A stretch of DNA of 64,000 nt from Curvibacter delicatus NBRC 14919 (lineage in GTDB: Bacteria > Pseudomonadota > Gammaproteobacteria > Burkholderiales > Burkholderiaceae_C). Below, one piece after another: positions 60,756 to 62,757 of the stretch; position 1 is the first letter of the stretch; the number at the start of each line of letters is the position of its first letter. The notes beneath the pieces were generated by a model, which ran no database searches, was not told where the DNA came from, and worked only from the letters and a program-made list of their open reading frames with translations. The DNA lies in the NCBI RefSeq assembly GCF_001592265.1, contig NZ_BCWP01000022.1, positions 1 to 64,000 of the forward strand. The letters are read 5' to 3'. Made by a program: the position numbers and the translations under genes.

Positions 60756-61595
60756 TTACATCCTGCCTAAGGCTTGCACACGCCACGCCAGCCAGAGCTT
60801 GCGCAAGGGCGTGAGGCTGACGCGCTGGTGCAGCACCTGGAAGTTGTCGCGCTCGATTTCGCGCAGCAGGGTGCGGTAGATGCTGGCCATCATCAGGCCG
60901 GGTTTTTGCGTGCGGCGGTCGCTCTCGGGCAACAGGGCCAGCGCTTCGTCGTACAGGCGGTGGGCGCGCTCGGCCTGGAATTTCATCAAGGCGGTGAAGC
61001 GTTCCGAATATTGGCGCTTGAGCAGTTCGTGCGCCTTGACGTCGAATTGCTGCAGCTCGCTCACCGGCAGGTAGATGCGGCCGCGCAGGGCGTCTTCGCC
61101 GACATCGCGGATGATGTTGGTGAGCTGGAAGGCCTGGCCCAGCGTGTGCGCGTACTCGGTGGTCTGTGTCTGTGTCTGGCCGAAGATGCGCGCGGCGACT
61201 TCGCCCACCACGCCGGCCACCAGATGGCAGTAGCGCTGCAGGGCCGGGTAGTCGAGGTAACGCGTCTGCTGCAGGTCCATCTGGCAGCCCTCGATGACGG
61301 CCAGCAGGTGGCGCGCCTCGATGCCGTAGTCGGCCACCAGCGGCATCAGCGCCTGTGTCACGGGGTGGGTCGGCTCGCCGGCATAGGCGCGTGCCACCTC
61401 GGCCTGCCACCAGGCCAGCTTGGTCTGGGCCACGCCGGGGTCGCTCACCTCGTCCACCACGTCGTCGACCTCGCGGCAGAAGGCATAGAAGGCGGTGATG
61501 GCGGCGCGCCGCGGTTTCGGGAGGAAGAGGAAGGCGTAATAGAAGCTGCTGCCGGAAGCGGCGGCTTTTTGCTGAACGTACTGCTCGGGCGTCAT
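60756..61595 (-). CDS. hpnD: Presqualene diphosphate synthase HpnD
   Basis: Squalene/phytoene-synthase fold, 279 residues from the ATG at 61593-61595 (MTPEQYVQQKAAASGSSFYYAFLFLPKPRR). Asp-rich motifs are CREVDDVVDEVSD and NIIRDVGEDALRGRIYLP. Joins two farnesyl diphosphates to presqualene diphosphate. The frame continues upstream for over 100 codons, but that stretch is the palindromic element, whose translation is not protein-like, so it is excluded. The element ends five bases before this start and may have brought or removed the ribosome binding site. Confidence 0.92.
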   Translation of the reverse strand: MTPEQYVQQKAAASGSSFYYAFLFLPKPRRAAITAFYAFCREVDDVVDEVSDPGVAQTKLAWWQAEVARAYAGEPTHPVTQALMPLVADYGIEARHLLAVIEGCQMDLQQTRYLDYPALQRYCHLVAGVVGEVAARIFGQTQTQTTEYAHTLGQAFQLTNIIRDVGEDALRGRIYLPVSELQQFDVKAHELLKRQYSERFTALMKFQAERAHRLYDEALALLPESDRRTQKPGLMMASIYRTLLREIERDNFQVLHQRVSLTPLRKLWLAWRVQALGRM

Positions 61596-61599
61596 GGCA

Positions 61600-61867
61600 A
61601 GGATCTGTTCATACCAATTTCGCAAGTGCGAACGCGATGAAAACCGCGCCAATCTAGGCGCGCGACGACGCCCAGGCCGGCTGCCTGGGCTAGGAGTGCA
61701 ACAACGAGTGGCGCGGTTTTCATCGCGTTCCCTTCGGGTTGCGGCCAAAAATGCCATGCGCGGCGTTGCGAAGCCTTGCCGGGGGCCGACCCCGGCGGCG
61801 TTTCGCGCCTTGCGCATGACATTTTTGATCCGCAACGCATCTTGTGAAATTGGTATGAACAGATCCT
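61600..61867. mobile_element. 268-bp element with terminal and two internal inverted repeats (MITE-like)
   Basis: The ends (61600-61626 and 61841-61867) are 27-bp inverted repeats differing at one base; they begin AGGATCTGTTCATACC. Inside lie two side-by-side palindromes: perfect 22-bp arms at 61630-61651 and 61709-61730, and near-perfect 24-bp arms at 61738-61761 and 61812-61836. The whole can fold as a three-way junction. No transposase gene, no gene-like reading frame and no clear target duplication. It splits hpnC from hpnD, and also fills the only gap in this pathway's operon. Confidence 0.75.
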
Positions 61868-61905
61868 GGATTGTCGCTGCTTCGAGGTGCCGTCGTGACC
61901 AGCCG

Positions 61906-62757
61906 TCACATCCACAGCGCACGCCACAGCATCACGGCCCCGTCCCAGGGTTTCAGCGTGGGCCGGGTCTGCAACGTGGCGTAGTCCAGTGCCTCGATCT
62001 TGTCCAGGATGCGCAAGCCGCCTTGCACCACCAGGCGCAGTTCCCAGCCGGCGCGGCCCGGCAGGCGGTGCACGAGCCTGGCACCTTTTTTCATCATGGC
62101 CCTGGCCATGTGTGCCTGGGCTGCTATCAATTGGGTAGCGTTGGGCGTCTGCTGCAAAGCCTGCAGGTCGGCGCGCGTGACGCCGAAAGCCTGACAGTCG
62201 GCGTCGGTCAGGTAGTGGCGGCCGCGCGGGATGTCGCGGCTCAGGTCCTGCCAGAAGTTGATCAGCTGCAGCGCGGTGCAGATGGCGTCGCTTTGTGTCA
62301 GGGCGGTCTCGTCCTGTACGCCGTAGAGGTGCAGCAGCAGCCGGCCTACCGGGTTGGCCGAGCGGCGGCAGTAGTCCAGCAACTCGGCCTGGTCGGCATA
62401 ACCGGACTGGTCGCGCGTCTTGCGCACGTCCTGCGTGAAGGCATCGAGCAGATCGGCCAGCAGCGGCACCGGCAGGTGAAAGGCCTGCAGCATGGGACGC
62501 AGTGGGTCGAACACCTGCGGCCAGCGGCCGCTGTGCGGCTGGCCGGCGGCCAGGGCCAGCAGGTCGGCACGGTAGGCCGCCAGGTCGTCCAGCCGCTGTG
62601 GCGCCGGGGCATCACCTTCGTCGGCAATGTCATCGGCAGTGCGGGCGTAGTGGTAGATGGCGGCGATCGGCGCGCGCAGCCGCGGCGGGCAGAGCCAGGA
62701 GGCCACGGGAAAGTTCTCGTAGTGCGCGATCGGCTGGGGAGCAGGGTGCGTGTTCAC
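61906..62757 (-). CDS. hpnC: Squalene synthase HpnC (presqualene diphosphate to hydroxysqualene)
   Basis: Squalene/phytoene-synthase fold, about 283 residues. Motifs YHYARTADDIADEGD and LINFWQDLSRDIPRGRHYLT. Second enzyme of the HpnDCE route. The start is uncertain: I use a GTG at 62757, giving NTHPAPQPIAHYENFPVASWLCP; a longer frame begins only with a TTG inside the likely regulatory region of the divergent efflux gene. The C-terminus ends WDGAVMLWRALWM. Downstream hpnD is separated by 310 bp containing the palindromic element. Confidence 0.88.
   Translation of the reverse strand: MNTHPAPQPIAHYENFPVASWLCPPRLRAPIAAIYHYARTADDIADEGDAPAPQRLDDLAAYRADLLALAAGQPHSGRWPQVFDPLRPMLQAFHLPVPLLADLLDAFTQDVRKTRDQSGYADQAELLDYCRRSANPVGRLLLHLYGVQDETALTQSDAICTALQLINFWQDLSRDIPRGRHYLTDADCQAFGVTRADLQALQQTPNATQLIAAQAHMARAMMKKGARLVHRLPGRAGWELRLVVQGGLRILDKIEALDYATLQTRPTLKPWDGAVMLWRALWM

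Follow-up and report, generated by a model that had tools for sequence, protein, structure and literature searches.

The 268-bp element between hpnC and hpnD of Curvibacter delicatus NBRC 14919 is best explained, with a probability of about 0.75, as a member of a superfamily of MITEs whose DNA fold is conserved, inserted between the two genes and probably moved by IS5-type transposases. It occupies positions 61600-61867 of the window, the 64,000-nucleotide stretch of DNA analyzed here. A MITE with IS5-type ends is a known kind. Its fold covaries and recurs as one architecture across Pseudomonadota, which goes beyond the single sequence available to the preliminary description of this DNA. The features are as follows.

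61600..61867, minus strand (the usual mRNA-sense strand of home-group copies): whole 268-bp element, defined by inverted repeats, folds and empty sites
61600..61626, plus strand: left terminal inverted repeat, AGGATCTGTTCATACC; family consensus, AGGGCCTGTTCACACT
61631..61729, no strand assigned: hairpin 1, consensus helices 2-4, with internal-loop motif
61730..61738, no strand assigned: mini-hairpin CCC-TTC-GGG at the junction, from an alignment of 50 sequences
61739..61835, no strand assigned: hairpin 2, consensus helices 6-8, its tip approximately the reverse complement of the hairpin 1 tip
61841..61867, minus strand: right terminal inverted repeat
60756..61595, minus strand: hpnD (presqualene diphosphate synthase), 279 aa, matching TIGR03465
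61906..62844, minus strand: hpnC (squalene synthase), the upstream gene, its stop 38 nt from the right end of the element; the start given is the first in the ORF and the true start may be internal

The near-perfect 27-nt terminal inverted repeats lie where they had been described and are 96% complementary. Two inner palindromes had been proposed to make the whole a three-way junction. The palindromes were confirmed, as a 25-nt pair (61630-61654 and 61706-61730) inside the outer repeats and a second long hairpin visible in the folds. The junction, however, is four-way because of the mini-hairpin at 61730-61738, and the layout is an outer stem around two long hairpins and this mini-hairpin. Folded as DNA, the 268 nt reached -111.8 kcal/mol, versus a mean of -54.9 kcal/mol for shuffled sequences (z -14.1); folded as RNA, they gave a z of -14.6, and in neither case did any of 200 shuffles equal the element. 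No transposase-like ORF was found within 61600-61867, in agreement with the earlier view that the element lacks transposase and coding sequence; the longest frames are readings through the palindrome. Thus, it does not encode the DDE transposase that marks an IS5-family element, and it has the features of a MITE in being short and non-coding with terminal inverted repeats. The minus strand of 61560-61910 contains one promoter-like and one terminator-like match inside the element, with 0.1 and 0.6 expected from shuffles.

The location in a pathway operon was borne out, HpnC, HpnD and HpnE all being confirmed. The hpnD ATG at 61595 is 4 nt outside the left end of the element. A frame open through the element stretches the hpnD ORF to 388 codons, whereas the real protein has 279 aa; the artificial lengthening that had been suspected is thus real. 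The preliminary description had asked for empty sites in the hpnC-hpnD gap of relatives, and had held that conservation of the sequence at this locus in distant species would make it an operon leader. The element was absent from all 15 related hpnC-hpnD loci compared side by side. Congeneric sequences align with the hpnC and hpnD flanks on both sides of a gap; at the position of the element, the empty site of the nearest relative reads GTCATGG-GCTT-GATTGTCGC. Since the related loci are empty and related copies occur at other places in this genome and in relatives, the element is an insertion and not an operon leader, which supports its description as a non-autonomous mobile element.

A second full copy is present in the same genome (C5:40873-41140), and one related genome, G003, seems to share this second copy at the same site. 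Short hairpins with the same ends occur in the genome at C43 and C26 (41 bp) and at C25 (71 bp). The proposed genome search for the ends gave a divided answer: the 14-mer end of the window copy (up to 1 mismatch) was found in its own genome only at the two ends of the element, whereas the family end AGGGCCTGTTCACACT recurs. Across the genome and 59 relatives, BLAST matches were obtained in 22 of 60 genomes, with 12 candidates scored per genome, so that copy numbers are lower bounds. The covariance model returned 8 to 56 matches in each of seven chosen genomes, many being one site reported on both strands. We fetched 60 further loci, mostly from the best BLAST matches. The usual element ends are TAGGGCCTGTTCACACT and its complement.

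To judge by their flanks, the 110 fetched entries fall into 108 clusters, two doubled pairs being the same records taken twice, and all 108 distinct copies lie at different sites. For 13 of 15 other insertions, at least one relative spans the junction when the joined flanks are searched in five genomes; for L072 and L177 no spanning relative was found in those five. The element therefore has the multiple copies at different sites, and the empty sites in relatives, of a MITE. Well-conserved empty sites often read YTAR (L306, L315, L307, L312 and L318); this was not seen at L065, L068 and L002. In 61 copies, leaving out L112, whose left end was not recovered, joining the flanks brings T and A together in 30, versus 1.1% TA in the flanks. 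TA stands on both sides in 27; the other 34 do not have it on both sides, among them the window copy, whose flanks are AA (left) and TG (right), with no clean TA. The commonest junctions are TTAG (12 of 61) and CTAG (7 of 61). This pattern fits a TA duplication, which is inseparable here from the combination of palindromic ends and a target preference. Note that three copies (L110, L111 and L115) have runs of N inside the element and their lengths are unsafe.

We take the element to have been moved, most probably, by a transposase acting in trans from a group of IS5-family insertion sequences, the 16-bp outer ends of the element being those of that group. The ends match IS5-family ends over 14-16 of 16 nt. 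Elements of the DUF4096 type within this family, which we take to be the group named IS427, have ends like AGGGCCTGTTAACACT and TA- or CTAG-like flanks, as the element does; they differ in that the element lacks a transposase ORF and does not resemble them in its interior. IS5-family elements of 822-840 bp with matching ends were found in a congener, in another genus and in two MAGs of other phyla (G005, G029, L217 and L254), so that the transposase with the same ends anticipated in the preliminary description exists, although none was found in the genome of the window. The element thus has autonomous counterparts with its ends, as expected of a MITE. The two MAG elements came from a wide end-pair scan of 119 loci, at 828 bp (L217, Verrucomicrobia) and 840 bp (L254, Treponema). 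Each encodes a DUF4096 part, and L217, the one searched for it, also a DDE_Tnp_1 part in another frame.

At the protein level, transposase matches at E<=1e-8 were detected in 6 of 60 genomes. Ten were close (65-67% identity), nine in G029 and one in the congener. Ends were checked for six of these ten, and in five both ends were within 2 mismatches of AGGGCCTGTTCACACT; at the sixth, L331, a single end was recovered. The ends of these five read AGGGCCTGTTAACAC.../...GTGTTAACACGCCCT, mostly with ct/ag flanks. NCBIfam assigned a piece of the G029 protein to the IS5 family just below the cut-off (107.2 versus 110). A rare end, AGAAGCTGT, is common to one of the three full-length elements of G049 (AGAAGCTGTCTTAA) and the IS5-type element resident there (AGAAGCTGTTTTAA); the other two elements do not match this IS. 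In G050 the IS ends (TAGATAGTGTCGTCAC) differ from those of the element. No end pair 600-3000 bp apart and within 2 mismatches was found in five genomes scanned. DUF4096 matches were absent from 24 of 26 genomes of the genus, the window's own included, and from 8 of 12 other genomes, each of which has the element nonetheless. The mobiliser may also have been a transient visitor or a different enzyme. One genome, G056, has 14 DUF4096 transposase matches, yet no element.

The absence of DUF4096 transposases from most carriers tested, together with the conserved fold, the loop motifs common to both hairpins and the frequent TTAG and CTAG junctions, would suit a single-strand route in which an enzyme of the REP/RAYT, IS200/IS605-like HUH or integron-like recombinase type reads the hairpins, the IS5-like ends being coincidental or secondary. 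The ends, however, are inverted repeats that match IS5-family ends almost throughout, often with TA on both sides, and we regard this route as unlikely.

The interior of the element is not left-over transposase DNA; the whole is a self-complementary unit of ~268 bp, passed down in numerous versions of its sequence both within the class of the window and elsewhere in the phylum. The best interior match between 91 elements and five IS was 13 nt (E 0.037), and origin as a type I MITE (as the term is used in PMC6382973), by deletion within any of these five, was rejected, since no interior is shared. Candidates for an autonomous element were also rejected at L183, L202 and L250, wide pairs whose second ends have 4 mismatches and which contain no recognised transposase. 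The same applies to the 1317-bp unit of L192, which resembles an IS3-type element within a short hairpin of the family. This unit (L192:4033-5349, from an Acidobacteriaceae MAG), which we take to be IS3 from its two ORFs and its ends, apparently inserted in a short hairpin with family ends.

The conservation of the fold was analyzed in an alignment of 50 sequences, comprising the window copy, 16 copies from the home and nearby genera and 33 collection-scan loci, of which L215 and L287 are home copies met again. Orientation was set by script, and four sequences were corrected by the junction motif. The RNAalifold consensus has 97 pairs, with standard pairs in 93.8% of cells, and 85 of the 97 pairs have changed on both sides among the aligned elements. 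The covariation score was 0.580, versus a mean of 0.159 for shuffled alignments (0 of 500 reached it) and at most 0.116 for slid ones; the consensus was derived from the same sequences, which favours it over the slid controls, and relatedness is not taken into account in the shuffles; the margin is nonetheless very large. The three C-G pairs of the mini-hairpin are present in all 50 sequences. The tips of the two hairpins are alike when one is reversed, with z above 2 in 37 of 50 elements.

Watson-Crick pairs account for 4326 of 4525 paired cells (95.6%). There are 199 G-T cells, and 81 A-C cells besides, and three columns hold ~92 of the G-T; without these columns, ~107 G-T compare with ~79 A-C cells. 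The predominance of Watson-Crick pairs, with G-T little above A-C, suggests a constraint that is DNA-like rather than RNA-like, and complementarity seems to be maintained at the DNA level. Mainly Watson-Crick pairing thus points to a constraint or a copying process acting on DNA. One option would be extrusion or single-strand folding during transposition or replication; another would be template switching, in which one arm serves to rewrite the other.

A further reading would make arm complementarity a mere by-product of palindrome-correcting template switching, with a functionless fold. This is compatible with the MITE reading, and we consider it possible though doubtful. In the closest copies, paired positions had changed about as fast as unpaired ones (438 of 6596 versus 173 of 2516), and the 34 closest pairs contain 105 matched double changes, where ~5 would be expected by our estimate if positions changed independently, besides 24 other double and 180 single changes. 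Solo-end remnants and short hairpin derivatives likewise suggest replication slippage. What template switching leaves unexplained is the near-constant length of complete members (see below), the mini-hairpin and the shared internal loops. Solo ends of 16-18 nt occur at L313 (G025:C29:135558-135906) and L167 (G000:C16:15825-15840), where a relative has the full element, as if the palindrome had been deleted or a single end inserted.

To determine the spread of the architecture, we searched 398 Pseudomonadota genomes from 213 genera with the covariance model. At E<=1e-4, 106 of the 398 genomes had matches. They represent 59 of the 213 genera, both inside the class of the window and in families beyond it, although weak matches (1e-4 to 1e-12) can be 41-54-bp hairpins matched end to end. 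At E<=1e-20, 82 of 398 genomes matched, the window's own included; this count is not of full-length copies only, as variants of 161-165 bp score 1e-20 to 1e-32. Among the matches read, 18 and 19 were complete, and all 37 measure 264-272 bp with complementary ends; one further match was cut by a contig end. Most of the 37 have an AGRGYCTGTT-like start, and a few are from the home family. The ends differ between lineages while the layout is constant. In one family outside the window's class (f57), many members carry the element, and their genomes are small (1.2-3.1 Mb).

A collection scan with a 16-mer yielded 119 loci, of which 33 were used (a pair at 260-275 bp) in addition to the wide pairs; single 16-mer matches may be due to chance, as we estimate that ~120 exact matches are expected in 257 Gb on both strands. 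The records included ones named Alloalcanivorax, Achromobacter, Acidovorax, Variovorax, Hydrogenophaga, Polaromonas and Piscinibacter. The window copy itself had no match in plasmids or phages. A class-level relative, L363, matched 4 of 72,556 plasmid records and no phage; L368 matched no plasmid. Plasmid matches came from Azotobacter, P. aeruginosa and Halomonas.

We also analyzed how the copies are oriented relative to genes, counting an ATG only where it begins a frame of 80 codons or more. The 61 copies from the home genus and family all occupy distinct sites, to judge by their flanks. In 35 of them such an ATG is found no more than 16 nt from the left end, and in 6 it is that close to the right end (p 5e-6); at a distance of 1-6 nt there are 26 cases on the left and 3 on the right (p 1.5e-5). 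The bias was not significant in two sets from other lineages (8 to 3 of 30, which becomes 8 to 2 of 28 when L215 and L287 are left out, and 3 to 3 of 19). In the home group, insertion or survival upstream of start codons would accordingly depend on direction. Over their outward 27 nt the two ends differ little, so the cause of the bias should lie deeper in the element or in selection. A stop within 30 nt of the right end combined with an ATG at the left end was observed in the sense direction in 24 of 60 copies and reversed in 4. Like the majority, the copy in the window has an ATG at its left end; its upstream stop, 38 nt off, is beyond the 30-nt limit.

This frequent placement between an upstream stop and a downstream ATG raises the question of whether the element is chiefly a structured RNA, a 5' leader acting in the mRNA through termination, attenuation or translational coupling, rather than mobile DNA. 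The stability of the RNA fold would agree with such a role, and so would the sense frame that ends at the boundary, which stays open over 48 codons or more in 31 of 60 copies, with a stop codon at the boundary in 37 of 60. In 29 of 60, however, a stop, nearly always TGA, interrupts the sense frame no more than 7 codons before its end, and on the same grounds the mini-ORF (MKTAPLVVALLAQAA...) was rejected as a conserved gene. The sites differ and empty sites are common, G-T cells barely exceed A-C cells where an RNA should favour G-U, and no Rfam family corresponds: 15 loci with elements gave no element at Rfam gathering score. An RNA role in place of mobility is therefore improbable, and the copies are better read as MITEs.

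Among the closest known systems are MITEs mobilised in trans by an IS, such as MITEAba12 with ISAba12. This MITE is reported to share identity with its candidate IS at the ends alone (PMC6382973); it is short and non-coding, with terminal inverted repeats and many sites, as is the element described here. It is mostly 113 bp long, with 9-bp duplications and little divergence (PMC6382973), whereas our element has 268 bp, favours TA and shows one architecture in the 59 genera matched at E<=1e-4. QMITE2, SPRITE, BOX and other folded repeats also form stable stem-loops, QMITE2 with inverted repeats in addition, but differ in sizes and hosts, and no four-way architecture is described in the accessible sections of that source (PMC10969869). 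REP/BIME and GTAG-tagged palindromes are extragenic, as is our element (PMC3733652, PMC2817692); REPs are 20-40 bp long (PMC3733652), and our element, of 268 bp with two like ends, is not such a palindrome with a tag at one end. In the literature searched, with ISfinder outside its scope, we found no description of a covarying four-way architecture of ~268 bp over a phylum, and a prior description is possible; two end strings and one loop string matched no papers.

Bacterial MITEs are commonly viewed as by-products of one IS in a narrow host group. Here, a non-coding element of nearly constant length retains its junction and loops throughout much of a phylum, although most of its stem pairs have changed. 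A more speculative reading, which we offer tentatively, is that of a phylum-wide, non-coding mobile DNA lineage in which the fold, and not a sequence, would be what is inherited. This four-way fold of ~268 bp, with recognised loops, may be required for movement or survival, the ends may be swapped to suit whatever IS5-type transposase is present, and in one host group the element may serve as a directional leader directly before start codons. The family provides a test case for how palindromes keep their arms matched and for the persistence of non-autonomous elements in hosts where a matching transposase has not been found. Between operon genes, such elements may alter the expression of pathways, for example hopanoid synthesis, and annotation is affected because open frames through the element falsely extend adjoining ORFs.

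Length variants with the same ends were also observed, of 165 bp (L440), 161-162 bp (L448, L451 and L452), 153 bp (L218), 201 bp (L231), 187 bp (L281) and 348 bp (L297).
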